The notes under the pieces: generated by a model
The model's database searches: none
What the model saw: only the letters and a program-made list of their open reading frames with translations
What the model was told of the DNA's origin: nothing
NCBI RefSeq assembly: GCF_019391655.1
Contig: NZ_JAHXPQ010000002.1
Coordinates: forward strand, 1-64,000
Origin: Mucilaginibacter rivuli
Lineage (GTDB): Bacteria; Bacteroidota; Bacteroidia; Sphingobacteriales; Sphingobacteriaceae
Reading direction: 5' to 3'
Length of the DNA stretch: 64,000 nt
Shown here: positions 12,744-45,034 of the stretch, piece by piece
How the letters are laid out: each line of letters opens with the position of its first letter
Numbering within the stretch: the first letter of the stretch is position 1
Made by a program: the position numbers and the translations under genes

Positions 12744-13889
12744 ATGAAAGTTACATTGAGAAAGAAAGGGATATCGAAGGGGATGGTGTCATTGTATCTG
12801 GATTTTTATCCGCCCATATTGCATCCGGATACCGGTGCTTTTACCAGGAGGGAGTTTCTTGGGCTTTATATCCATAAGAAAAGCAGAAACGAAATAGAAA
12901 CCAATCATAATAAGGAAACGCTAATACTGGCACAGGCAGTTTGTGCCCGGAGGCAGCTGGATATTCAAAATGAAAACTTTGGCTTTATTTCGTCAGCCAA
13001 ACGCCAGGGTAGTGTGTTTGATTATTTTCAGATCGAAGTAGATAAGCGTAAGGGTTCGAATTATTTCAATTGGGATATGGGATTGCGATATTTCAAACAT
13101 TTTGCAGGCCCGGACCTACGTTTTGTAGACCTGAATCTGACTTTGTGCGAAGAGTACAAAAAGTATTTGTTAAGTGCCCATGGTATAGGCAAGAAGGAAG
13201 GTCCATTGTCTCGCAATACAGCTGTAAGCTATTTTGCGAAATTGAAAGCTATTCTTAAAAAGTGTTATAAGGATAAGCTTTTGACCGAAGATTTGAATGC
13301 TATAGTTGAGCCGATCAAGGAAAAGGAAGTTCATATCGAGTTTTTGGAAATAGATGAGCTTCAAAAACTCATTAATACCCCTGTCGATGATCAATTTCAT
13401 AAGAATGTATGTTTGACGTCAGCGTTGACAGGTTTGAGGTTTTGTGATGTTGAGGTGCTGACCTGGGGAGAGGTCAGAGGAGTGGAGGGTAATCATTTTC
13501 TACAATTTACTCAAGTAAAGACGGATGGGGTAGAGGTGATGCCAATTTCAGATCAGGTGTTTGCCTTGTTCGGCGACAGGCGTGAGAATGATGATTTTGT
13601 TTTTCCAGGATTAAGCTATTACAAAGTCAGTCTGTTTTTATCAAAGTGGATCAATTCGGCGGGTATCAATAAAAAGTTTAGTTATAATTGTTTGCGTCAT
13701 ACTTGCGCAACGTTACAGATAGATTCAGGAGTAGACATTTATACTGTGTCAAAGATGCTGGGGCATCGTCACGTCAAGACCACCCAGCGTTATGCAAAGG
13801 TCGTAGACAGGAAGAAAAAGGAAGCTGCTAAAAGTATAAAGGTTGAAATACCTACGGTAGTTAATCGAACACTTCGGTTGGTGCAATAA
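12744..13889 (+). CDS. Tyrosine-type site-specific recombinase (integrase)
   Basis: A 381-aa integrase with an N-terminal arm-binding part, a SAM-like core-binding domain (about residues 90-180) and a catalytic domain. Catalytic positions are R in TALTGLRFCDVE-type context (about residue 231), R in NCLRHTCATL (about 327), H in LGHRHVKTTQRY (about 346) and the nucleophile Y in the same segment (about 355). The first His of the usual HxxR box is Asn here (NCLR), a change from the consensus, though several active relatives vary at this position. Orientation is away from mnmE. It presumably integrates the island; the attB is discussed at the tRNA fragment. Confidence 0.9.
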   Translation: MKVTLRKKGISKGMVSLYLDFYPPILHPDTGAFTRREFLGLYIHKKSRNEIETNHNKETLILAQAVCARRQLDIQNENFGFISSAKRQGSVFDYFQIEVDKRKGSNYFNWDMGLRYFKHFAGPDLRFVDLNLTLCEEYKKYLLSAHGIGKKEGPLSRNTAVSYFAKLKAILKKCYKDKLLTEDLNAIVEPIKEKEVHIEFLEIDELQKLINTPVDDQFHKNVCLTSALTGLRFCDVEVLTWGEVRGVEGNHFLQFTQVKTDGVEVMPISDQVFALFGDRRENDDFVFPGLSYYKVSLFLSKWINSAGINKKFSYNCLRHTCATLQIDSGVDIYTVSKMLGHRHVKTTQRYAKVVDRKKKEAAKSIKVEIPTVVNRTLRLVQ

Positions 13890-31507: not shown

Positions 31508-33493
31508 TTAACCTGTTTTCTTTATAACGAGGTGAGACAACCCCGGATCGCTTAATAACCGCTCCATTTCCAATTGAATAATATCCTGAACATCCTGCTT
31601 CACATCCAAATAATTCCGCTGCACGATCCCGCTATTGATCTCACGTACCTTAGGCAGTTCTACATAGCCAGCGATCTCTTTCTTCAGCGCCTCATGATCG
31701 TTAATGATCTCGCAATGAAAAGCTTTTAATTCGATTTTCTCTTCGGGATTATCAGCTACCAAACCAACAAATTCACCAGAACTTAAAGCTGCGATTTTTG
31801 AGGGCGGCACTGCGGCTTCCAGTTGTTTCGAGCGGCTGATCGATGTATCCTGCCTGTTAATGGATAGACTTTCCCGATCCTGCATAATACGTCCGATCTT
31901 CTCCGACACATTTTTAGCCGTGTCTCCTGAAACCTGGCCCACCACCACATTTCCGATGATATTCATGATCACATCCGCCTGCTCCCGCCCGTGATCTTTT
32001 CGCAGTTGGCTGGCGTCCTGAATCCCCAAACAAGTGCTTACCTTGTTGCCCCTCGCGGTGGCAATGGTCGGAATGATATCGGTCATCAGTGTAGGGAACT
32101 CGTCCAGGATCAGGCTACATTTTAGCCTGTCCTTTTGATTGATGATCTTAAAAAGACGATTGGTGAACAACGATAGCACAGCACCGTATATCTGTATCTT
32201 CTGCGGGTTGTTGCCCACGCACACGATCTTTGGATTTGCGGGGTCATTGATATCCAGCGTAAAGTCGTTACCCGAAAGCACATAGTACAATTGCGGTGAG
32301 GCGATCCGCGCCATTGTTATCTTCGCCGATGCGATCTGTCCTTCCAGTTGCTCCACGGCGTCGCGTAGGTAGGCGCTCACAAAAGGGTTGATGAGCACAT
32401 CAATTTCCGGCTCGGTACGCAGCACGGTAAACAGCTTATCGTAATCGACTTGCATCAATTCGATCACATGCGGCAAGGTGCAGAACTCCCCGCCTTTGTA
32501 CTTCCGCAGGTACCAGATGATGGCCGTCAAAAAGTTGATCGGGCTCTCCACAAAGAAGTCACCTTGTTTTTTCACCCACTCCCGGTTCAGGCCAAGCAAG
32601 ATCGTACGTGCCGATTCCACCGCGTCGGTGATATCCGACATGCCCGAAGGGTCGAGTGGATTACAGCGGTTACTCCGGGACAGGTCATCAAAATTGATGC
32701 TGTAGAATTTGGGTTTGACCGTATAGTTCTCCTGGTATTTTAGGAAGGTATTGTAAGCGATGACCGCCAGATCCGGCATCTTAAAATCGTAAACGAACAT
32801 GGCAAAACCCTTGCGGATATGCTGGGTAATCACATGCCTTATAACGAAGTAAGATTTTCCAGCACCGGGAGAACCTAAAACCAGCACCCCTCTAAATGGA
32901 TTGATGATATTGATCCAACTATCCCGGACTTTTGATTTAAGCTTGTAGCGAGCCGGCAGGTTTACCGAAAATTCGTTTTCGATCAGGCGTTCCTCCTGCG
33001 GGAACGTTTCATTCTCGCTATTGAATATATCATCAGCCAGCCTGTCCCGGATAATCTTGGAGATCATGGTGCCACCACTCAGAATCAGCAGGAAGCCTAA
33101 ACCGGTTACGCCCATGTAGAGTGAGGCAATGATGGTCAATTTGCCCGGAATCAATAATAAAAAGTAGCTGGTGAGGAAAAAAAATAAACCCACCACCATA
33201 TACAGCAAGGCCGTTTTGAAATTCTGCTTCTCATCCTTACGGCCTTTAACACCGATCAATGCAATCACCAGGAAGCCCAAAGCGATCAGCTTTGACTTAT
33301 AAAAGTTGCTGAACATGCCCGTTCGCACGATATTGCCGAGCAGCCTGTCCGATAAAGGCGCTACCAAATGCCAATCGGCAAAAGCACCATAACATTCTTT
33401 GTAAAAATGTATAGCCAGCACAGCTATACTGATCAGCCTGGTCATGTCCAGGATCTTGCGCATTGCCTGATCGTTCTCTCCAGTTGTTGACAT
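31508..33493 (-). CDS. mobC: VirD4/TraG-type coupling protein (Bacteroidetes MobC)
   Basis: A 661-aa inner-membrane ATPase that delivers relaxase-bound DNA to a type IV secretion channel. The N terminus carries several membrane segments between residues about 16 and 140 and the HFYKECYGAF stretch typical of the YWFCY-type N-terminal domain of Bacteroidetes MobC proteins. Walker A is GSPGAGKS (207-214) and Walker B LKCSLILDEFPTL. It is the last gene of the leftward mobilization run and converges on the helicase gene with only 25 bp between. No channel genes are present, so it would use another element's machinery. Confidence 0.87.
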   Translation of the reverse strand: MSTTGENDQAMRKILDMTRLISIAVLAIHFYKECYGAFADWHLVAPLSDRLLGNIVRTGMFSNFYKSKLIALGFLVIALIGVKGRKDEKQNFKTALLYMVVGLFFFLTSYFLLLIPGKLTIIASLYMGVTGLGFLLILSGGTMISKIIRDRLADDIFNSENETFPQEERLIENEFSVNLPARYKLKSKVRDSWINIINPFRGVLVLGSPGAGKSYFVIRHVITQHIRKGFAMFVYDFKMPDLAVIAYNTFLKYQENYTVKPKFYSINFDDLSRSNRCNPLDPSGMSDITDAVESARTILLGLNREWVKKQGDFFVESPINFLTAIIWYLRKYKGGEFCTLPHVIELMQVDYDKLFTVLRTEPEIDVLINPFVSAYLRDAVEQLEGQIASAKITMARIASPQLYYVLSGNDFTLDINDPANPKIVCVGNNPQKIQIYGAVLSLFTNRLFKIINQKDRLKCSLILDEFPTLMTDIIPTIATARGNKVSTCLGIQDASQLRKDHGREQADVIMNIIGNVVVGQVSGDTAKNVSEKIGRIMQDRESLSINRQDTSISRSKQLEAAVPPSKIAALSSGEFVGLVADNPEEKIELKAFHCEIINDHEALKKEIAGYVELPKVREINSGIVQRNYLDVKQDVQDIIQLEMERLLSDPGLSHLVIKKTG

Positions 33494-33614: not shown

Positions 33615-34913
33615 TTATTCCGGCGATATCCGCTGCCGTTTCTTTTTCTTCTTTTTCCGTTTGAAATTCCAGTCCATCGTTTCGGCCTGGTACTCCGGTT
33701 CGAGCAAGGTTTCGATCAACCCTGGCCCCGTTATATTTTTCCCCTCACCAGGAATTATTTGGCCTTGGTTTACGCGTTGCCACCCCTCTTTTTCCGCCTT
33801 GCTTTGCGTCGTTTTTTTCGCCTCGCCAATGTTATTTTTCCCCTCACCGGCTTCGACGTAAGCGCAGCGTTCCAGGATGGCTTTCCCACTATAGGTTTTA
33901 CCTAACTCGCTTCCGTTAAAAACTGCTTTCTGATTATGCCGGTGATCTACATAAGTAATCCCGTAGATGACCCCATCTTTATTCTGCCGGATCACCATAT
34001 CAATACCTTCTTTCTTCAGATCAGCGGCAAGGGATGCCAGATCCATCTTATCCCTCAAAAGCGCCATGTCGATCGCATTCTTTAAGCGTGGTTTCAAAAA
34101 CTCTTTCTTAACCTTTTTCTCAGCAAACTTTACTTTCAGATTTTTTAGCGTCGGCTTGCTGTGAAACAAACAGGCCTTTACCGGCTTACCGATCTTTTCG
34201 CCATGCTCATCCAAAACCCTAAATACCAAACCCTCGTGCGCGGCTATACGGCTACCGTCACCACCTGTATCGGCAACAATATTGTATAGGCCAAGCACCG
34301 CATTCAATTCCGGCAAGGATGAAAACTGGTACTCCGCTATTGCTTTATTCAGCACATTGCCAATCGCCCGTTTCGTTTCGGTCTTGCCATAGTCCACCTT
34401 TGCCGCATTGACCGGCTTCAGCCGGAAAGCTTCGTTCTGTTTGCTGCCCTCGGCCACTACCAGCCCGAACATTTTTTCAATCTCTAAACGCGCCTGTTTC
34501 GATCTAACTTTAGCCAAATTATGCAGTGTAATGGCCTTACCATCCGGCTTGATATTGGTCGTGATCAGATGCACATGCGGGTGCCCTGCATCCGAATGTT
34601 TATATAATAACCAGGGCTGCTCACCGAATCCGATCTTATCCATATAGGCGGCTGCGATCTCCCGCAAACGTTTGTCACTTAGTGTTTCGGAAGGATCAAA
34701 ATTTAAAGAGATATGCAAGCTGTTAATTTTGGTCCGCTGGTTCAATTCCGTCAGCTTTTCAAAGCGCCGCAGTTTCTCAAAAAAGTTCAGATCGCCAGGC
34801 TCTTTAATAAAGCCTGAAGCCTCCAGACAAACCGCTTTTCCTTCCTTTAACTTATGCTCATTATAGTTCAGGATGTTGCGGATGGAACTGCTCTGGTGAA
34901 CTACTGCAACCAC
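33615..34913 (-). CDS. mobB: Relaxase / mobilization nuclease (MobB-type)
   Basis: A 432-aa relaxase of the Bacteroidetes MOB_P-like group. The N terminus VRNILNYNEHK-type segment contains the presumed nicking tyrosine Y17. The metal-binding histidines lie in HPHVHLITTN (H111, H113, H115). A basic C-terminal tail ending in a Lys/Arg run (KRKKKKKKRQR) fits DNA binding. It nicks oriT and pilots the strand. The start overlaps the upstream accessory gene by 13 bp. A 121-bp gap separates it from the coupling-protein gene and shows nothing distinctive. Confidence 0.87.
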   Translation of the reverse strand: MVAVVHQSSSIRNILNYNEHKLKEGKAVCLEASGFIKEPGDLNFFEKLRRFEKLTELNQRTKINSLHISLNFDPSETLSDKRLREIAAAYMDKIGFGEQPWLLYKHSDAGHPHVHLITTNIKPDGKAITLHNLAKVRSKQARLEIEKMFGLVVAEGSKQNEAFRLKPVNAAKVDYGKTETKRAIGNVLNKAIAEYQFSSLPELNAVLGLYNIVADTGGDGSRIAAHEGLVFRVLDEHGEKIGKPVKACLFHSKPTLKNLKVKFAEKKVKKEFLKPRLKNAIDMALLRDKMDLASLAADLKKEGIDMVIRQNKDGVIYGITYVDHRHNQKAVFNGSELGKTYSGKAILERCAYVEAGEGKNNIGEAKKTTQSKAEKEGWQRVNQGQIIPGEGKNITGPGLIETLLEPEYQAETMDWNFKRKKKKKKRQRISPE

Positions 34914-35290
34914 TCTTCTTCCACCTTTCCAAGCTGCATTTTGATCGCTTCGATTTGTCCGAATAAACGCTCCTTATCCCGCTCCCAGCCGATAAGCCAA
35001 TGCTGCATTTGCGGCAGATGATCCAGGGTGTGCAGGCGGTGCGTGGCCTGGTTGAAATTCACGCCGATGGCATTCAATTCCTTTTTTAATAAAAGCAATT
35101 CAGCCATAAATTCATCCAGCGAAGAATTGCGTGTTTTGACGGTCAGTTCCTTTCCGAACAAAACCCTGCGCACATATTCACTCAGCTTTTTAATGGTGGT
35201 TTTCTTCCACCGGGTGACCAATGTGCCGTATTCATCATTGGTGAATCTTAAAGTAATCCGGCATATCCTGCCTGTTTCTTTCGCTTCCAT
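34901..35290 (-). CDS. Mobilization accessory protein (MobA/MobC relaxosome type)
   Basis: A 129-aa protein with a ribbon-helix-helix-like N terminus (RICRITLRFTNDEYGTL, then KKLSEYVRRVLFGK) and a helical C terminus containing GVNFNQATHRLHTL, typical of the small relaxosome proteins encoded before Bacteroidetes relaxases. It should bind oriT and recruit the relaxase. The 13-bp overlap with the relaxase start supports an operon. Confidence 0.83.
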   Translation of the reverse strand: MEAKETGRICRITLRFTNDEYGTLVTRWKKTTIKKLSEYVRRVLFGKELTVKTRNSSLDEFMAELLLLKKELNAIGVNFNQATHRLHTLDHLPQMQHWLIGWERDKERLFGQIEAIKMQLGKVEEEWLQ

Positions 35291-35474: not shown

Positions 35475-36452
35475 TCATGAATTGTCCGCTCTCAGCCGGT
35501 TACCCGGTTTTAAGTTAACTTTTGGAACCTCCCCCTTGTGCATGAGCCAATCGTTCAGATCTTTGAACTGGTGATATCTTCCGCTTTCGTCTGAGTAACG
35601 CGAACCCATCGCCAAGGCGTACTGTGTATAAGCCTGCCCGGTAATATCCCGGTCAAGCCAAAGGCCGACTTGCTCATGTTGCTCCAAAAATGGTAGGGCC
35701 CGGTCAAAAAGTCCCGCACCGTTCAAGACGACGAAATCCGTTGCGCCCCAATGGGCATTAGCGTTGATTGCCCGGTAAGAAAGAAAGTCAATAAAGCCCT
35801 CGAATACCTGTACCGTTGGCACACCGAACCTCATGGTTGTGATATCCTTCGGTGAGCTGCTTTGCTTGTAGTTTTTGTTCCGGATCTCATAACCGCCCGC
35901 ATCATTCTTAAACCCGATCCCGTAATAAGTCCCGTCACCGATCTGATAGGTTATTTCCGAACAATAAGCATCGGCCATGGACAAAGGGATGGAGCGATCG
36001 TGCAGATAATTTTTGAGCGGATAGGAGTAAAGTTTCCGAACATCGGTGACCAGTAGCTTTGCCGCTTTACCAACGCGCCCTTCGTGTAATGACGGATCGT
36101 AGACAGGCAAGCTTAAAGTTGGCCTGTCCGCATTGAATTTCTCCAGTAGATCCCGGATACCACACTGATAATAGCGCAGGCAAAAGTCAACGAGGTTCCC
36201 CCCGGTAGCCAGCGGGAAATCGTACCACTCGTTGGTCAGTTGGTTGATATGAAAACTGGCTTCACCTTCCGTTCGTAACGGGGATAAATACCAATAGCCG
36301 GTACCATCTTTTTTCACCTCAGCGGGCTCAAATCCCAGCGTGGCCAGGTAAGCTACCATATCGATTTCCCTGATCCTTGCCAGAGAAAATGCACTATTTT
36401 CCGATCCTGTCACCATTATCCCCATAGCATTCAAAACCCGAAAGTAAAGCAC
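35475..36452 (-). CDS. TOPRIM primase-like protein of the mobile element
   Basis: A 325-aa protein resembling the CHC2/TOPRIM primases of Bacteroidetes mobile elements. The N-terminal part (YWYLSPLRTEGEASFHIN ... WYDFPLATGGNLVDF) has the CHC2 fold pattern but none of its zinc ligands. The TOPRIM part shows VFEGFIDFLSY (E218) and GLWLDRD (D267, D269). It would prime the complementary strand after transfer. MVTGSEN at residue 13 is an alternative start. It heads in the same direction as the mobilization genes, across the oriT-candidate gap. Confidence 0.78.
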   Translation of the reverse strand: MLYFRVLNAMGIMVTGSENSAFSLARIREIDMVAYLATLGFEPAEVKKDGTGYWYLSPLRTEGEASFHINQLTNEWYDFPLATGGNLVDFCLRYYQCGIRDLLEKFNADRPTLSLPVYDPSLHEGRVGKAAKLLVTDVRKLYSYPLKNYLHDRSIPLSMADAYCSEITYQIGDGTYYGIGFKNDAGGYEIRNKNYKQSSSPKDITTMRFGVPTVQVFEGFIDFLSYRAINANAHWGATDFVVLNGAGLFDRALPFLEQHEQVGLWLDRDITGQAYTQYALAMGSRYSDESGRYHQFKDLNDWLMHKGEVPKVNLKPGNRLRADNS

Positions 36453-37711: not shown

Positions 37712-39139
37712 ATGTATAGATTTAGGCCTGTTTTCGCGTTATTAGATGGTTACCATGAGTTGGAGAATCAGGAAATTTATTTTGCATCGCCGAAAGAACT
37801 CAATGATCCCATGGAAGGATTTCGGGATATATATTGGAAGGGCGATGCGATCGTATGGGAAAATTTGCTGGTTAATTATGTTCGATGCGTGGAACAGATT
37901 TACACGATGACCCTGATTGCCGGTGACCATTTTAAATTAGGCATTCAGGATATTCCACTTTACAATTACCCTCAAAAAGATATTCCGGAAGCAGCGATCG
38001 CGCTGCGAAAAAAGGTGAAAGCAAAATTCTTCGACAACGAGTTCATTAATTCTCTATCGGCGTCACTTGCCAACAGGAATCAACAAACGAGGCGTGAAGA
38101 ATTGCTATCATATTTATCATACGTACACGCGTACGCTATCAATGCCGTTAGCCAAGTTTATCACGAAGAAGGGATCATACCTGAGCCTGTATTTTATCAA
38201 GATATCTCGGAGATGGACATGATTTTGAAAAAAAACGGTGATATGGCAGAGCTGGTAAACAATATGGAAGAAACGAATCCTGAAATCGATCGTTTTGCAG
38301 AATTTTTCTTTTCCGCTATGCATGGCACGCGCAAGGGATTAGCGCTGTTGACGGCTCTGGGGTTGACGGAAAAACAATCGGCTTCCAATGCAATTTTTCT
38401 AGTCAGAGATTTTCCGGAAAAATTTATCGATAAGTTAGAAAGCTTATGTTACCCCGATTGGTATTCGGCTTCATTTTTAAGCGAATGCACTAATTCGGCG
38501 GTTTGGGGACATTATGGAAACAACCATAGCGGCGTTTGTCTGATATTCAGAGCTCAAGAAAGCGATGGAAAGTTACAATTAGCGCTTAATCTTGGGCATA
38601 GTTTCGGAGCGGGTGACCACACTTCAAATTACAAATCTCAGCAATTCCGCGAGATTAAATATAATAACTGTCACGTGGCAATTGACTTTTTCCGTTCAAT
38701 AGGGAGATCGCCCGCCGCTTTTCTTGAACACAACTGGTATCGGGACGAATCGGGCGACTTGAGTATTTGCGCCGATTACCTTTCAGTAAATACCGATCAA
38801 TGGCGTTTAAATTACTGGCGGAGCTTTTATGAGGGATTAACTGTAAAACTAAAAGAATGGGATTACGAAAAAGAATATCGTATCGTTTTGGAGGGCGGCT
38901 TCATTGATTACTCTGCCCCTGAAAAAAGGAAGGTAAAGTATAATTTCGAAGATTTGACAGGGCTCATATTTGGAATTAAAACTACTAATGAAGATAAACT
39001 AAAGATTATTCATATCATACAGGAAAAATGCAAACTGTCCGGGAGAACAGATTTTGAATTTAGGCAGGCATTTTATTCCAATAAAAGTGGCTTGATCGAA
39101 AATTACAAACTCAGTTTATTCAACTGGCTCGATACTTAA
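37712..39139 (+). CDS. DUF2971 family protein
   Basis: A 475-aa protein with the DUF2971 signature at both ends: MYRFRP ... NQEIYFASPKELNDPMEGF at the N terminus and WGHYGNNHSGVCLIF ... YEKEYRIVLEG later. DUF2971 proteins are widespread in accessory regions and defence islands, but their biochemistry is not established. This copy is longer than common ones (about 250-300 aa) because of a helical insert around residues 75-230. Its stop overlaps the stop of the convergent nuclease-like gene by 4 bp. Confidence 0.72.
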   Translation: MYRFRPVFALLDGYHELENQEIYFASPKELNDPMEGFRDIYWKGDAIVWENLLVNYVRCVEQIYTMTLIAGDHFKLGIQDIPLYNYPQKDIPEAAIALRKKVKAKFFDNEFINSLSASLANRNQQTRREELLSYLSYVHAYAINAVSQVYHEEGIIPEPVFYQDISEMDMILKKNGDMAELVNNMEETNPEIDRFAEFFFSAMHGTRKGLALLTALGLTEKQSASNAIFLVRDFPEKFIDKLESLCYPDWYSASFLSECTNSAVWGHYGNNHSGVCLIFRAQESDGKLQLALNLGHSFGAGDHTSNYKSQQFREIKYNNCHVAIDFFRSIGRSPAAFLEHNWYRDESGDLSICADYLSVNTDQWRLNYWRSFYEGLTVKLKEWDYEKEYRIVLEGGFIDYSAPEKRKVKYNFEDLTGLIFGIKTTNEDKLKIIHIIQEKCKLSGRTDFEFRQAFYSNKSGLIENYKLSLFNWLDT

Positions 39140-40311
39140 ACTTTTTTTCGCATGTCTTTGCTGTGCGTGATGACAGGATTTTTGAAGTAACCTAATTGTT
39201 TCTGCGCGGCCTTAATCTGCTCAATTATTTCATCACTTAATATGGGGATATCGAAATAGACTAGATCAAAAATTGGTGGCTCATTTAGCTCTCTGCCAAT
39301 AGCGATCCCAATAACTTTAGACGCACCTGGATTTTCGTATCTTGCTATCATACACCGCAATTGGAGTTCCTTTTCTTTCTGAAACCAATTCTTTGCACTT
39401 AAGGGCATAAAGACATAAGAATGGTCAGCTCCGTTAAAGGCCTTAAGCATTCTCGCTTTAACTCCAGTTTTAATCGCATCTTCCAATACCATACCCAATT
39501 CGATCCGGTTCATTCGCGGCTCCAATGCAATCGCCCGGGTAGCCTTTTCCAGTTCAGACCTCAAATGGAGTTTCTGATCACGCTCGACATGCATAGTAAA
39601 TAATTGAGCAACGAACTCGTCCCAAACGTAACTCATTTTGATTTCCTTCCGCCATTGTGCATATTCCGCAGAACCTTTGTAAGTCTCCCATAAATTATTT
39701 TCCAAAACGATGGCATCTGGATCTACCTCAAAATTGAAAATCAGTTCCGTATTAATGTATAATGCTAAAAAATCGACCTCTTTCGGGATTAACAAATGTT
39801 TGCCCCAAAGGAACTTTTCTTTAGCCTTAAGATACCGGATAAAGTCTGTGATCGTATCAAGTTCCTCGAAAACTGTTAACGTGGACTCTTCGTCAAAAAC
39901 ATGGACGAACCCTTCGCCAAAATCGCCGTTCTCAAGTGGATAGCGATTCTCGCCGCCGAAAGCGATAGCGATTCGAAAGATTATACGGTTTTCTGTTAAG
40001 GGCAATTCGATCTTTGTTTGCCGATCGTTTAGTGTAAGTTCGTCAACGCTGTTGAGATATCGCTCCGCGCCATAGATTTGGTCGACAGACTGCGATATCG
40101 CTTTTTTTTGCCAGCGTTCACGGCGAACCACTTCGTCGCTATGTTCGGATATTCTGATATCCTTGATAGAAATAATGATAATATTGTTTTCGCAAACAAT
40201 TAAAACATCGCACAGTTCCTTATTCTTTTTGCGCAGCGGACTCGGAAAACTCCAAAAAGGCAGAAATGATTTTCGTGAAAGCTGGCTTACAAAAACTTCA
40301 GAAGCTGTCAT
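39136..40311 (-). CDS. Nuclease-like protein coupled to AbiV
   Basis: A 391-aa protein. The N terminus KNKELCDVLIVCENNIIIISIKD resembles the core of a PD-(D/E)XK/NERD-like fold with D35 and K50, but the usual Glu/Gln two residues before the Lys is Ser48, so activity is doubtful. The remaining 330 residues are helical with no known motif. Its start codon lies 14 bp inside the end of the AbiV gene, so the two are translationally coupled and probably act together. Confidence 0.6.
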   Translation of the reverse strand: MTASEVFVSQLSRKSFLPFWSFPSPLRKKNKELCDVLIVCENNIIIISIKDIRISEHSDEVVRRERWQKKAISQSVDQIYGAERYLNSVDELTLNDRQTKIELPLTENRIIFRIAIAFGGENRYPLENGDFGEGFVHVFDEESTLTVFEELDTITDFIRYLKAKEKFLWGKHLLIPKEVDFLALYINTELIFNFEVDPDAIVLENNLWETYKGSAEYAQWRKEIKMSYVWDEFVAQLFTMHVERDQKLHLRSELEKATRAIALEPRMNRIELGMVLEDAIKTGVKARMLKAFNGADHSYVFMPLSAKNWFQKEKELQLRCMIARYENPGASKVIGIAIGRELNEPPIFDLVYFDIPILSDEIIEQIKAAQKQLGYFKNPVITHSKDMRKKV

Positions 40312-41017
40312 TTTTTACTCTGTTAAATTCGTCTAACTGTTTCTCGAGGTCGTATGCCCGTTTCCGCAACTCGCCCATCTTCTTCAGATCAAGATCCTTC
40401 TCCAATTGCTTTAATTTGTTAGGCGAAGCCGACTCAATTTCACGCATTAGTTTTGTTACATCCTGTTCAAATACGCGTACATAAGTGGATGCCCTTTCAT
40501 AGTCGGCAAATTTAATATCGGCGGGATCAACAATACCATCGCAGTAATCAACATAAAAAGCACGTTGCTTGAGATCGTCCGCTTTTTTCCACCATAGATA
40601 ATTCCCTGTGGCCATTCCTACATTTAAAACCGCATTACCGATGATTGCCCAAAAACCGGATCGTTCCTTGGCTTTGCGCGAAGAAAAATTAAACAGTAGA
40701 TAAATCGAAAAAAAATCCTTGATGAGATCGTGGCGTATTTTATGGCTTGAAAAAAGCTTCCCGAACCAAGGTTGATTTTTTATACCGAAGTTCTTGGTGT
40801 TGAGTAAGCAGCCAAAAGCCTTAATCAATTCCTCAGTTCCAAGTATCAGATGCGCGATGCCATTTTGGTACTCACCCGCTTCGGCAAGAATGTTCGCGCA
40901 ATTGAAATGTCGTTTCGCATTCAGTTCAATTACAGGGTAGATCGGTTCAAACTCCACAAACGTGAGATCTGACCACCTTCTATTTTTGATATTCGATGAA
41001 GATTGTGTAGGTACCAT
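40298..41017 (-). CDS. AbiV family abortive-infection protein
   Basis: A 239-aa helical protein matching the AbiV pattern: repeated A-x(n)-A helices with NGIAHLILGTEELIKAFG (EE-x2-K), then SSHKIRHDLI, then QRAFYVDYCDGIVDP, which parallels the (K)xxGLYVDY segment of the family. AbiV was first described in Lactococcus as a protein that stops phage late in infection by blocking translation. The gene lies directly before and overlapping the nuclease-like gene, which points to a two-gene module. No membrane segment is clear. Confidence 0.75.
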   Translation of the reverse strand: MVPTQSSSNIKNRRWSDLTFVEFEPIYPVIELNAKRHFNCANILAEAGEYQNGIAHLILGTEELIKAFGCLLNTKNFGIKNQPWFGKLFSSHKIRHDLIKDFFSIYLLFNFSSRKAKERSGFWAIIGNAVLNVGMATGNYLWWKKADDLKQRAFYVDYCDGIVDPADIKFADYERASTYVRVFEQDVTKLMREIESASPNKLKQLEKDLDLKKMGELRKRAYDLEKQLDEFNRVKNDSF

Positions 41018-41076: not shown

Positions 41077-41655
41077 TTAAAATAAAGACAGCTGCACTAA
41101 CCCGATTTCCAATTTAGTAATCACTTTCAACGTTTTAGATATCACATCCTGGTGATAATTAGTGCGGTCGGTATCGCCAACTTTAGATAACATGTCTTTT
41201 TTCAATTCATCAAGCGCCGCAGTTAAAGTAGCATCTCGATTACTGAATTTTTTACAGAATACGCTCAAAGGGCTACTATGCCCTGCACATCCATAACTGC
41301 AACTGAGAGCGTAAGCCCAAAGCCCATTAGGCCCGTGCCCGATACGGATACTGCTGGCTTCCAGTTTAATTTCTTCAAACTCCAAAAACTTCGGTGAGAT
41401 AAACCAACCGGAAGGGTTAAAGGCAATTTCAGTAAAACCGAATGTTAGGCCTTCCCGGTATTCATGCACATTCATCAGGATGTGCCGCATATCTTCACCA
41501 AAACCTGCGAACCAGGCCAGTTGTTGAGCATCACCATTTTTGATCAGGGCAAGCATTTCTGCAACCAGTTCTTTTTCGTATTTCATCAGCCAGTTTTTGG
41601 CGCCATAATCCTGAACGGCTTGTGCTGATTGAAGGGTTAATGCAAACTTTTCCAT
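41077..41655 (-). CDS. Hypothetical protein, 192 aa
   Basis: A soluble alpha/beta protein that I do not recognise. A notable segment is ALSCSYGCAGHSSPLSVF, with two Cys and a His that could bind metal. It sits between the AbiV gene (59-bp gap) and a 449-bp stretch of strong hairpins, and starts close to the hairpins, which could therefore act in its leader. Confidence 0.6.
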   Translation of the reverse strand: MEKFALTLQSAQAVQDYGAKNWLMKYEKELVAEMLALIKNGDAQQLAWFAGFGEDMRHILMNVHEYREGLTFGFTEIAFNPSGWFISPKFLEFEEIKLEASSIRIGHGPNGLWAYALSCSYGCAGHSSPLSVFCKKFSNRDATLTAALDELKKDMLSKVGDTDRTNYHQDVISKTLKVITKLEIGLVQLSLF

Positions 41656-41661
41656 AAGCTA

Positions 41662-41790
41662 AAAAATTAAGTTTTTATTGCTCTTCCGTGCGCAGCAGGC
41701 GCTTGTCAAGGGCCCCGCGTATGCGGGGTTTATATACCCTTGACAAGCGCCTGTGAAGCGCACGACCTTTGTGATCAAAACTTAATTTTT
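41662..41790. repeat. Nested inverted-repeat structure (129 nt)
   Basis: Four pairs of arms nest here: 41662-41675 with 41777-41790 (14 bp, perfect), 41687-41693 with 41758-41764 (7 bp), 41696-41712 with 41737-41753 (17 bp, perfect), and an inner hairpin CCCCGC-GTAT-GCGGGG at 41713-41728. Such a pile of arms could be a replication or transfer origin or a structured RNA. There is no coding evidence across it. Confidence 0.9.
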
Positions 41791-41967
41791 AGGGGAAAAA
41801 GATGAAACGGAAGTAAGTACAAGCTATCGTTTTTGCTATGAAATGGAGATACAGGTTCGATGACCTGGATAACATAGAATTTGTCCCCGGTTCAACGAGA
41901 TACGCTGTTAAATAAAAGAAGGTAAGGATAATCATGATGACGGAACCAGCAAATAAACAGGCAACGT

Positions 41968-42062
41968 CCCGCCCAAGGGGCGGGTTGTTGCTGCTGCAGG
42001 TTAAGCTGGTGAGCCGGCCCGTGCGCTTTGCGCACAGCGGACGGTAAACCTGCTTAACCTGC
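41968..42062. repeat. Second hairpin cluster before the Septu-like operon end
   Basis: CCCGCCC-AAG-GGGCGGG (41968-41984) is followed by an 11-bp arm pair (GCAGGTTAAGC 41996-42006 with its complement 42052-42062) that encloses GTGCGC-TTT-GCGCAC (42021-42035). Together with the structure at 41662 it fills most of a 449-bp stretch that holds no gene I can support. Confidence 0.85.
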
Positions 42063-42104
42063 AAAAAAGCGTAATTACCCTTAAATCATAAAAGCAAAAA
42101 CAGA

Positions 42105-43124
42105 TCAATTTTTTGCGGGAGCTACGGATATACCAAATTCATCACACACATCGCGGGTCAATTTAGAAAATATACGTTCGTGCAAGCGGTCAACGGTCAT
42201 TTTGTTACCCATCAACAGTTCTATGATCTCAGCTTCAGAATTAAAAAGGCGATGCCCTCCGGGCTGATAACCTTCCAGCAATTCTTTAATAGTCGTATTG
42301 TTGTAGAAATATGCTTTTTTGATGATCTCTCCTGCGATATCCTTATGTTTTTCATACCTGGCCACCAAAGCAAAATCTTTGATATTGTTTTTTGCCTTAG
42401 GTTCCAAAACGGTATCTGCTGACTTACATGGGTTCAACGATAAGGTGAAATCCTGCTTATTCACCACGAAATCGGTATCCTTAATGCCTGTACGGAACTG
42501 GTATATATTTTCGAAGCCGCCCAAAAAAGGGTGGAGGTGCGTCGAATCTTTAAAGATAATTGATCCTTTCAGCGTGGAATTACATACATAACAGGCCGGA
42601 ATAAGATTGTAAAATGATAAAGCAAAATACGGGTGATCCGATTTAGCATAAAAGTGGTCAAAATGAGGCCGTGTTTTTGCCGGCTTTCTAATCGTATAAG
42701 TGAATTGGGCATTGCAGTAAGCGCAGCAATTCAAATTCAGGAGTTCAGCATGGTCGTAAGCCATCCGGCCATCATAACGGGAAGTAAACGAATTATGGTC
42801 ATGATCGTAATTAAAGATCTTTAATATTTCATTATTATAATTCTTTTTGATCGTTCTCGCGCTCAAATCGCCATTTAAACGGGTAAAGTTTTGTATTGAG
42901 GTCGTAACATAAGGCGCGAGCTGATTGCCATGAAATTCCAGCCGGTCAGGGCGGCCTTTCATGATCTCCGGTAGGTTTGCACCAATATAGTCGAATACAT
43001 CACTAAAAATATCTTTGGGCCTGTTTTGAATAGTTGCTGCGATTGCAAACTGTGCATTATTCTTTTTAAAAAAGGCATCTGCCATTAGATCGAGTTCGGC
43101 TAAACTGAAAGGAACCTTGATCAT
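42105..43124 (-). CDS. ptuB: HNH endonuclease, Septu PtuB-like
   Basis: A 339-aa nuclease from the Met chosen here (MIKVPFSLAEL). The HNH core reads NCCAYC (C134, C137), RPHFDHFYAK (H154, D156, H157), FYNLIPACYVCN (N173, C178, C181), a zinc-stapled beta-beta-alpha-metal site typical of PtuB and retron-type HNH effectors. An upstream in-frame Met at 43232 would add 36 residues but lies inside the ATPase gene; the 43124 start is only 2 nt after the ATPase stop, the spacing expected for coupling. It is presumed to cut nucleic acid when released or triggered by the ATPase. Confidence 0.75.
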   Translation of the reverse strand: MIKVPFSLAELDLMADAFFKKNNAQFAIAATIQNRPKDIFSDVFDYIGANLPEIMKGRPDRLEFHGNQLAPYVTTSIQNFTRLNGDLSARTIKKNYNNEILKIFNYDHDHNSFTSRYDGRMAYDHAELLNLNCCAYCNAQFTYTIRKPAKTRPHFDHFYAKSDHPYFALSFYNLIPACYVCNSTLKGSIIFKDSTHLHPFLGGFENIYQFRTGIKDTDFVVNKQDFTLSLNPCKSADTVLEPKAKNNIKDFALVARYEKHKDIAGEIIKKAYFYNNTTIKELLEGYQPGGHRLFNSEAEIIELLMGNKMTVDRLHERIFSKLTRDVCDEFGISVAPAKN

Positions 43125-43126
43125 AA

Positions 43127-45034
43127 TTATTTCTTTTTGGATTTTCTGTGAGTCTTCTGCGCCGCTTTCAACTCGGCCACACGCGCAAGCAACACAGCGA
43201 TCTCTTCTGTTTCCTGGAATTTCTCTTTCCACATCACCTGTAGTTTGATACGGATAATAGGCTCGCCGATTTGTGCGATGGTCTTTCTTATTTTCTCATC
43301 AGGTATTTTGATCCGTTTGTCATTGAGGTAACGAATGATCGAATCGATCTTAAGTTTGGCAAAATCGCCGATGATCGCACCTTCGACATAAAATGAATCC
43401 AAAAATAATTGATGAATATTGGCGCCAAAGGTCGGCAGCCGGTTATTTTCTTTTTCAAGAATGTTAGTTTCCGTTCGGCTGGTCTTATTTAAAAATATAA
43501 CATGTGGTTTTGTGAGGTCGGACGTTAAGAATGGTGCATTAGCGGTATAGATCAAGTGAATTTGGTGATCTTTAAATAAAGAAGATAGAAAATCCAGACT
43601 GTGTTTAAAAAATTGCTTTTGCCACTCAGGATGAAAACCCGCATCCCCTTCGTCAATCAGAATAACCAGGCTTTTCCGGAGCTGGTCGCTTCCGATCTGA
43701 TGTCGTTTCAAGTGAACGAACCTCGACATAAACGACAAAAACGATTGCTCTCCTGTACTCAATCCCCGCCACCGAAACTGGAGAAAAGGGCTAAATCCCT
43801 TAACTTTTAAATACAGATTAAAAAACCGGTCAACGATCTCATCGGCATCAACAGTAAGCGCAAAATCATACCGCATACCTAAAGGATTCTGCCCACTGTG
43901 AACAGTTATAAAATGCTGATCGACCAGCCCCTCAAATAAATTGATTATCCGGGGCGCCAAGTCCGACAATTCCATATACCGCTTATACGTGTAGGATTCA
44001 GGTTCGTTGAAAGCCCGAACTTCTTCGGTCCTTAATCGATTGAAAAAACGCAATACAAAGTCCCTAACGGTTTCATCATCCCCAATATTAAGCAGATGTG
44101 TGCTTTGAATATTGCTGCTATATTTTCGCTCGGTCAGGAAAAAATTAAGTAGCACCGCTTGGCAAAATAGATCAACACCCCTCCGCTCATCGTTTTCTTC
44201 CATTTTATCAACCAGCATTTTACTGTCGAATTTTTTAAGGAGTTCCTTGATATCCTGGTACTTTGGGTCCGTTGAGTAACTAAAATACTCCAGGTCCGTG
44301 GGGTCAATGAACATCGATAACGAATCGGGCCGGTTAAAGGGAAGCAGGTGCCTGTATTCTGAGATCAGGAATTGCACCGCCTTGCTAAGTTCATTACCGA
44401 TTAAGTACTCCAGATCTGTTGCCGACTGATTGGTCTTTTCGTTTTCATTGATCTCCGCCAGCGCAGCTCTTCTCGTTTCCTCGATCAGCGCGGTAGTAGA
44501 TAAATTATATAGTCCTTTCCAGTCAGTCGCTTCTTGCTTGAGGTCCAGGATGTAAGAGTAATAGATATAGTCCGCATCACCGAGCTTTGTTTCACTTCTC
44601 ATCGAACGGCTTTCCAAAACCGAATCCGAATAAGGTTGAACGATGAAATGATCCTTTAAGCCAGTGATCTCCAACTGCCAGTTCTCAGGGTAGGTGATGT
44701 AATTTTTGAGGTGACCGGGTTGCTCTTCGATCGAATAGATCACCAGATCACCGGCGAAACCGGCTTCCAGTCCTTCAGGAAGTTTCGCTTTGATGTATTC
44801 CAATATTGTAGATTTGCCTGCCCCATTTTTACCAATAATGCCTGTGACATTCGTTACATTAGGCTTTTCAAAGAAATCAGCTATAAAATCTTCATTCTTT
44901 TCAATATGCAAGTTCGCTTCTATCCCGAAAATGGTGTGGTTAATTTCAATGTGGAATTTATATTCGGCAGACAGATTAATACTTTTATCTTCAAAATATT
45001 TGAAGTTACTAATCCAAATGAAGTGTATTTGCAT
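43127..45034 (-). CDS. ptuA: AAA/ABC-type ATPase, Septu PtuA-like
   Basis: A 635-aa SMC/ABC-like ATPase. Walker A is GKNGAGKST (68-76), the signature LSTGEQS (425-431) and Walker B LVILIDEGDAGFHPEW (456-471), with a helical insert between. Septu pairs such an ATPase with an HNH nuclease; the order ATPase then nuclease in one operon fits. The insert contains no nuclease or TOPRIM motif, so it is not an OLD-type protein. It is the rightmost defence gene of the island. Confidence 0.75.
   Translation of the reverse strand: MQIHFIWISNFKYFEDKSINLSAEYKFHIEINHTIFGIEANLHIEKNEDFIADFFEKPNVTNVTGIIGKNGAGKSTILEYIKAKLPEGLEAGFAGDLVIYSIEEQPGHLKNYITYPENWQLEITGLKDHFIVQPYSDSVLESRSMRSETKLGDADYIYYSYILDLKQEATDWKGLYNLSTTALIEETRRAALAEINENEKTNQSATDLEYLIGNELSKAVQFLISEYRHLLPFNRPDSLSMFIDPTDLEYFSYSTDPKYQDIKELLKKFDSKMLVDKMEENDERRGVDLFCQAVLLNFFLTERKYSSNIQSTHLLNIGDDETVRDFVLRFFNRLRTEEVRAFNEPESYTYKRYMELSDLAPRIINLFEGLVDQHFITVHSGQNPLGMRYDFALTVDADEIVDRFFNLYLKVKGFSPFLQFRWRGLSTGEQSFLSFMSRFVHLKRHQIGSDQLRKSLVILIDEGDAGFHPEWQKQFFKHSLDFLSSLFKDHQIHLIYTANAPFLTSDLTKPHVIFLNKTSRTETNILEKENNRLPTFGANIHQLFLDSFYVEGAIIGDFAKLKIDSIIRYLNDKRIKIPDEKIRKTIAQIGEPIIRIKLQVMWKEKFQETEEIAVLLARVAELKAAQKTHRKSKKK

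Follow-up and report, generated by a model that had tools for sequence, protein, structure and literature searches.

A conserved hairpin in an integrated element of Mucilaginibacter rivuli that looks like a single-stranded DNA promoter

Single-stranded promoters are known from plasmids of E. coli, and they explain how incoming plasmids express protective genes before reaching the double-stranded state. Masai and Arai (1997) and Nasim (2004) are reportedly the works cited on the Frpo/ssi single-stranded promoters of F and ColIb-P9. As described in PMC9849209, transferred DNA folds at Frpo and rebuilds the promoter boxes, which gives early, transient expression of leading genes. PMC11541004, in whose main text the word 'bacteroid' is absent, describes a large search for Frpo by five known sequences together with TTGACA and TATAAT. 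Such a search would miss Bacteroidota, because it relied on Frpo/ssi sequences and E. coli boxes, while the main Bacteroidota sigma factor reads TAnnTTTG at −7 and TTTG near −33, as given in PMC7366714 and PMC2483708. No such hairpin was described for Bacteroidota in the open-access, non-preprint literature searched.

The locus considered here lies in a 64,000-nucleotide stretch (the window) of contig NZ_JAHXPQ010000002.1 of M. rivuli. Judged from its sequence, the first of two hairpin clusters in this stretch, cluster 1, looks like a Frpo-like single-stranded promoter or single-strand origin. The bacteria whose mobile element carries it live in soil and water.

Hairpin clusters and genes of the element

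The first-pass annotation had reported two clusters of hairpins and no gene at 41656–42104. The clusters are confirmed by their arm pairs (Table 1) and by folding: the + strand reaches −179.8 kcal/mol compared with −123.5 (sd 6.4) for 100 shuffles (z −8.8), the − strand has a z of −9.7 against shuffles, and no shuffle folded as well. The sole ORF of at least 60 aa is a 91-aa TTG ORF, and no gene is supported. Searches of the window gave no Rfam match at the gathering score and no tRNA. The two clusters are unrelated things. Cluster 2 begins about 40 nt past the end of the HNH gene and, with a TTTATTTG tail on that gene's strand, resembles its terminator.

Table 1. Coordinates of the hairpin features and of neighbouring genes in the window
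Feature	Position	Strand	Basis or remark
Tyrosine recombinase	12744–13889		
TraG-like coupling protein	31508–33493		named by eye
MobB-type relaxase	33615–34913	−	NCBIfam Bacteroid_MobB, E 1e-89, 301 bits, below the curated cut-off of 400
MobC/NikA-like accessory protein	34901–35290	−	protein scan
Toprim/CHC2 primase-like protein	35475–36452	−	protein scan
DUF2971 (PDC-S31) gene and AbiV-like gene, between relaxase operon and hairpin	37712–41017		
MEKFAL gene, 192 aa, presumed target	41077–41655	−	ATG 49 nt from left-arm GTCAAGG
Cluster 1, whole single-stranded-DNA hairpin	41659–41792	+ (folding strand)	arms, folds, wobble bias
Lower stem, left half; would be template for transcript start when folded	41659–41678	+	arms (17-nt pair 41662–41678/41774–41790, one mismatch, 14 bp perfect)
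Middle stem, left half CGTGCGC, pairs with 41758–41764	41687–41693	+	fold
Upper stem (17 bp), left half	41696–41712	+	arms, perfect pair with 41737–41753
Apical GC hairpin CCCCGC-GTAT-GCGGGG	41713–41728	+	fold
One-sided bulge TTTATATA	41729–41736	+	family alignment/search pattern
Upper stem, right half, with −33-like box TTGAC at 41740–41744	41737–41753	+	
Middle stem, right half GCGCACG	41758–41764	+	fold
−7-like box GACCTTTG, 5/6 to TAnnTTTG, mostly unpaired in fold	41764–41771	+	
Lower stem, right half	41774–41792	+	arms
Cluster 2, two hairpins, terminator-like, tail TTTATTTG	41958–42063	−	arms TGCAGGTTAAGC/GCTTAACCTGCA (41995–42006/42052–42063) flanking a GC hairpin; sequence
AAA ATPase and HNH protein	42105–45034		PADLOC candidate system PDC-M62A/B, E 4.5e-138 and 1.3e-80

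The element has inserted at the 3′ end of mnmE (11940), and in 11 other genomes similarity ends at the last or next-to-last base of this gene (12 of 21 match, own included). Its right end is not marked by any repeat of at least 17 nt in the window, and the right flank has no match in any other genome of the 21. At 42503, within the HNH gene, 14 nt of the mnmE end are repeated, which is unconvincing as an attachment site. The element is cautiously termed mobilizable, and its cargo appears defence-like. The AAA/HNH pair is weakly PtuAB-like, and no reverse transcriptase is present among the neighbours scanned.

Mob operons are usually transcribed away from oriT, and an oriT is expected just upstream (to the right) of the MobC/NikA-like gene. 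The + strand is plausibly the transferred strand, running rightwards from near 35.3 kb, and cluster 1 would lie about 6 kb into the presumed leading region.

The MEKFAL protein belongs to no Pfam family (26 members searched; best chance match E 0.065), and the window's copy to no NCBIfam or PHROG family. Its structure is confidently predicted, with a pLDDT of 92.7 and a pTM of 0.79. At E 0.001 the fold has no match in the PDB and one in BFVD, an uncharacterised phage protein (A0A6J5KXA6, E 7.9e-10, TM 0.77). Distant homologues (28–29%) occur on one Sphingobacterium plasmid and one Flavobacterium plasmid, where no comparably strong hairpin was found in the 12.5 kb examined; a generic box-plus-hairpin scan of the window and these two plasmids yielded many weak folds and was uninformative. 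From position, an anti-defence role for MEKFAL may be guessed at.

A hairpin family with covarying arms and host-type boxes

Similarity to cluster 1 was detected in 31 of 199 genomes, own included. An exact pattern occurs 37 times across 399 genomes of the bacterial family (own included), spread over 35 of them, the reversed-pattern control giving none, and a covariance model detected the hairpin in 92 of 300 genomes of the order. With strict filters, the model found it in 5 of 395 genomes of a phylum sample, all from the window's genus. The own genome holds no further copy (one covariance-model match): similarity there is confined to the element, to matches between its own palindromic arms and to short chance matches. 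All matches outside the own genome lie within positions 1–161 of the query (window 41640–41800), except one of 28 nt in genome G021, the sole outside match to cluster 2, which is inside an unrelated coding gene. The first-pass annotation had named a lack of stem conservation in related elements as its refutation. Cluster 1 escapes this, its stems being strongly conserved; cluster 2 does not, having no relatives in the 199 genomes, own included, and was rejected as a second element.

Fifty-five stretches were fetched and 46 hairpins oriented, the window's included. The strict pattern found no hairpin in 10 of the 56 sequences (the window and 55 loci); nine of these ten have a MEKFAL match, and some carry variant or decayed hairpins. 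The 46 hairpins split into 32 that mostly precede a gene (the window's set, sets 1 and 2, of which group A1 makes up 22) and 14 without a nearby gene start (set 3), 11 of which adjoin a mob operon at about 220–280 nt from its end. In the window's set, 27 of 32 lie beside a MEKFAL homologue (24 open frames, one of them truncated, and three broken), a count to be read knowing that part of the loci were recruited by similarity to a query containing the gene start; four precede other ORFs (one of just 50 aa) and one precedes none. The distance from left arm to ORF start is 41–59 nt in 28 of the 32. The pattern itself contains no gene sequence; of the 37 places it found, 23 adjoin a MEKFAL homologue (three broken), four adjoin other ORFs, and ten belong to set 3.

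MEKFAL-family loci come mainly from Mucilaginibacter (26 of 34), the rest being from Daejeonella, Hufsiella, Pedobacter and five Bacteroidetes bins. On a Rep3 plasmid-like contig (L087), the same hairpin precedes a DUF6876 gene instead of MEKFAL, and a further locus (L100) resembles it by eye. At five loci (L069, L072, L094, L102 and L104) the hairpin and the end of a DUF5712-like gene in a mob operon are about 220–250 nt apart (assigned by Pfam in L094); DUF5712 may be a relaxase.

Covariation was measured in 45 sequences, L118 being excluded from alignment and model for its odd spacing. Standard pairs fill 94.3% of pair cells, against 75.1% after shuffling, and the covariation score is 0.509 against 0.139 (none of 500 shuffles as high), slid partners reaching at most 0.122. 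Twelve of the 20 pairs have changed on both sides, a count reached by 14 of 500 shuffles. Constancy of the CCCTTGAC and GTCAAGG core is no evidence, because it was set by the search pattern, and that of the TTTATATA bulge comes partly from selection, since one form of it was demanded by the pattern; the covariation evidence is carried by the outer pairs. Wobbles were counted outside the core, in gap-free registers that favour neither G.T nor A.C. On the + strand the 46 hairpins have 101 G.T against 22 A.C (80 against 22 without the first position), and 25 representatives, less than 70% alike in their variable arms, have 52 against 13. This excess marks the + strand as the folding strand, and in 41 of 46 hairpins it also gives a more stable fold than the complementary strand. 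If deamination acted preferentially on an exposed strand it could enlarge the G.T excess, and would likewise make + the exposed one. Together, covariation and the G.T/A.C bias point to selection on the structure of one strand, the presumed transferred one.

A perfect TAnnTTTG lies in the right arm of 35 of the 46 hairpins; nine more, the window's included, match it at 5/6 and two at 4/6, while the mirror of the left arm has it in none of the 46. This box is outside the search pattern (TTGAC is inside it) and is expected by chance in about 0.6% per hairpin over 13 offsets. Spacing from TTG to the box is 18–24 nt in 43 of the 44 hairpins with a box of at least 5/6; at ordinary genes in these loci TTG is most frequent at 19–20 nt (9 and 8 of 123 boxes), the other distances counted having 0 to 4. 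In DNA-parameter folds, 40 of the 46 hairpins leave some or all of the −7 box unpaired and six pair the whole octamer, so pre-melting is not universal.

The direction of the boxes differs between the two states of the DNA: in the duplex the promoter is directed away from MEKFAL, and in the folded + strand into it. In the 220 nt before each of 28 adjacent ORFs, the box stands in sense in one case and reversed in 19. By sequence and predicted fold, a folded single strand rebuilds the host boxes with the gene on the template side. RNA made from the folded strand would be MEKFAL sense, because the left-arm template continues into the + strand of the gene.

Orientation relative to mob genes is uniform among those of the 46 hairpins for which such a gene was found. 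A relaxase (16) or DUF5712 mob protein (5) is encoded opposite the hairpin strand in 21 of the 21 cases where one was found (25 of the 46 had none); several relaxase types are represented, and the 21 cases are not independent because many of the elements are mutually related. A relaxase was found for 10 of the 32 members of the window's set, in all ten on the opposite strand, on the 5′ side and 1.9–9.4 kb off. In set 3 the relaxase or mob gene is on the 3′ side in 11 of 11, an arrangement more in keeping with priming than with expression.

A further 21 covariance-model matches (a palindromic reverse match in L210, one of 22, was left out) gave a raw tally of 11 opposite, four same strand and six uncalled. 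Strands were assigned from the box, because near-palindromic hairpins draw some wrong-strand model matches. All ten matches with a perfect box and a mob gene are opposite, and L201, with a weak box, agrees. L198 (box 5/6) contradicts the orientation, its nearest relaxase being on the same strand. The other 'same' calls (L195, L202 and one L203 match) have boxes of at most 4/6 and run against the strand given by the model. Five of the six uncalled matches have no mob gene, and L207 gave no orientation.

A probable promoter of the folded strand and competing readings

Cluster 1 is probably a promoter that exists only in single-stranded DNA, Frpo-like and suited to the Bacteroidota sigma factor. 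During conjugation, the recipient would take in the + strand of the window as the transferred strand, and this strand would fold. The hairpin's right arm, with TTGAC and the TAnnTTTG-like box, would then serve as non-template strand, with the left arm as template. RNA polymerase of the host, carrying the primary Bacteroidota sigma factor, would initiate at the base of the upper hairpin and read into MEKFAL, so that this leading-region gene would be expressed immediately, before second-strand synthesis; the same RNA may also prime the second strand. In the double-stranded state that follows, the boxes would face the other way and MEKFAL would be off. The earlier suggestion of an origin of replication or transfer came near, in that a transfer-linked structure acting in single-stranded DNA is supported, with 'origin' itself only approximate.

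Close to this reading is one in which the folded strand is read only for a primer, as a single-strand origin, and MEKFAL expression is incidental. PMC4595007 describes, for F and rolling-circle plasmids, primers that RNA polymerase makes on a folded single strand. Similar hairpins occur in ssDNA phages, and the 14 hairpins of set 3 stand without a nearby gene start, 11 of them at the mob-operon end noted above; the 3′ end of the transferred strand probably lies close to such a site, and a primer made there would allow most of the element to be copied. The window's set speaks against this account, with its narrow spacing to an ORF (28 of 32) and its MEKFAL neighbour (27 of 32), as does the place of the window's hairpin in the presumed leading region, and primer synthesis as the sole function is rather unlikely. 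Dyads near mob genes are typical of oriT, and cluster 1 could on that ground be a protein or primosome site (oriT, DnaG assembly or integration host factor) with no promoter function. This is improbable, given that the promoter box is conserved although it is outside both stem and search pattern, and that, in the ten members of the window's set with an identified relaxase, this gene is kilobases (1.9–9.4) from the hairpin.

The first-pass annotation had also offered a structured RNA. The hairpin does directly precede a gene and covaries, as a structured 5′ leader of the MEKFAL mRNA (an attenuator or riboregulator) would. The wobble bias, however, selects the other strand: with G.T at 101 and A.C at 22 on +, the mismatches would fall in the mRNA-sense strand, and + is the better folder in 41 of 46. 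Moreover, 27 of 28 ORFs lack a sense promoter box within 220 nt and Rfam gives no match, so that a leader RNA of this gene is very improbable. The right arm in duplex form is a good consensus promoter, which might simply drive a rightward antisense or small RNA and overlap a dyad. Such an ordinary double-stranded promoter would leave the covarying arms, the lower stem and the narrow distance to the left gene unexplained, and would have a right-hand ORF to serve (at least 80 aa, within 200 nt, in the duplex-promoter direction) in 1 of 46 cases; this reading is quite improbable. A template for a DNA-based, retron-like defence element, the remaining early proposal, is not supported: there is no reverse transcriptase among the ten neighbouring proteins scanned, a lack that the first-pass annotation had itself remarked on.

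Related hairpins and known systems

The same core is found in ssDNA phages, with the hairpin on the coding strand in six and on the opposite strand in three. The six comprise Microviridae L221 (147–183, box TATCTTTG), OM869608 and PQ006936 (both box TACCTTTG), PQ006534 (box TACGTTTG) and MZ089790 (box TATTTTTG), and L467, an inovirus-like contig with Zot and Phage_CRI domains in which no TAnnTTTG was noted. The hairpin is on the opposite strand in L227 (box TAACTTTG), in MG945634 (box TACCTTTG) and, without a box, in the pair MG945373/MT135351. Phage records matching the OM869608 hairpin are Microviridae in 7 of 7 cases. Occurrence in ssDNA phages therefore fits a single-strand role, although at six to three the orientation is not uniform.

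These phage sequences were drawn in part from IMG/VR pattern scans, in which the matches listed were mostly chance and at least 14 passed the filter; L221, L222, L227, L264, L330 and L444 were examined closely, and contigs L466, L468 and L469, of a set of seven, were left unplaced. L221, L227, L460–L463 and L471 have a Microviridae hairpin with TAnnTTTG, in mixed orientation to the coding strand. Two Microviridae contigs (L238 and L279) carry a GTCAAGGG/CCCTTGAC palindrome without bulge or box. In a Klebsiella phage record the core matched, but there is no such box.

Blastn with cluster 1 gave no match at E 0.01 in 72,556 plasmid records, a search with a short query that also missed the related Enterococcus hairpins and a set in which F is possibly not included. 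A related hairpin occurs at 1043 places in 676 of these records, 638 of them from Enterococcus. On contig L470 (8825–8856), which has SSB and PcfJ genes, the same core hairpin is present; no annotation lies under the plasmid matches to it in the 30 rows inspected. The hairpins of Enterococcus and Lactococcus plasmids, many of which are conjugative or mobilizable, have the same CAAGGGC...TTTATATACCCTTG core and share the upper stem, GC apical hairpin and bulge with cluster 1. They differ from it in that, by eye in L464 and L470, a Firmicutes-like TACTGT replaces TAnnTTTG. It is conceivable, if somewhat doubtful, that a single structure (a CAAGGG/CCCTTG stem, a GC apical hairpin and the TTTATATA bulge) serves as a single-stranded promoter in Bacteroidota mobile elements and plasmids, Microviridae, an inovirus and Enterococcus/Lactococcus plasmids alike, with the downstream box alone adapted to the sigma factor of each host and with RNA polymerase or a partner in direct contact with the bulge.

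A model of the hairpin could mark leading regions, the direction of transfer and candidate anti-defence genes, MEKFAL first, across the phylum, and would be of use foremost in the bacterial family where the hairpin is now seen. Retron msr/msd regions likewise have nested hairpins near PtuAB-like genes, and differ from cluster 1 in the matter of the reverse transcriptase. The RNA-polymerase-dependent sso of rolling-circle plasmids and sso1 of ICEBs1, as described in PMC4595007, are active only as single strands, folded and read as promoters, as is proposed for cluster 1. Compared by description, sso1 consists of three stem-loops, whereas cluster 1 is one long bulged hairpin with a lower stem. 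Frpo/ssi of F and ColIb-P9 have −35/−10 boxes, whereas cluster 1 has TTGAC and a Bacteroidota −7 box, resides on an integrated element and faces a presumed target gene without a named family. As PMC9849209 and PMC11541004 describe them, Frpo/ssi are, like cluster 1, non-coding hairpins with a gene directly after, and they lie in a leading region, as cluster 1 presumably does; folding of the transferred strand restores the promoter boxes of the host in Frpo/ssi and would do so in cluster 1.
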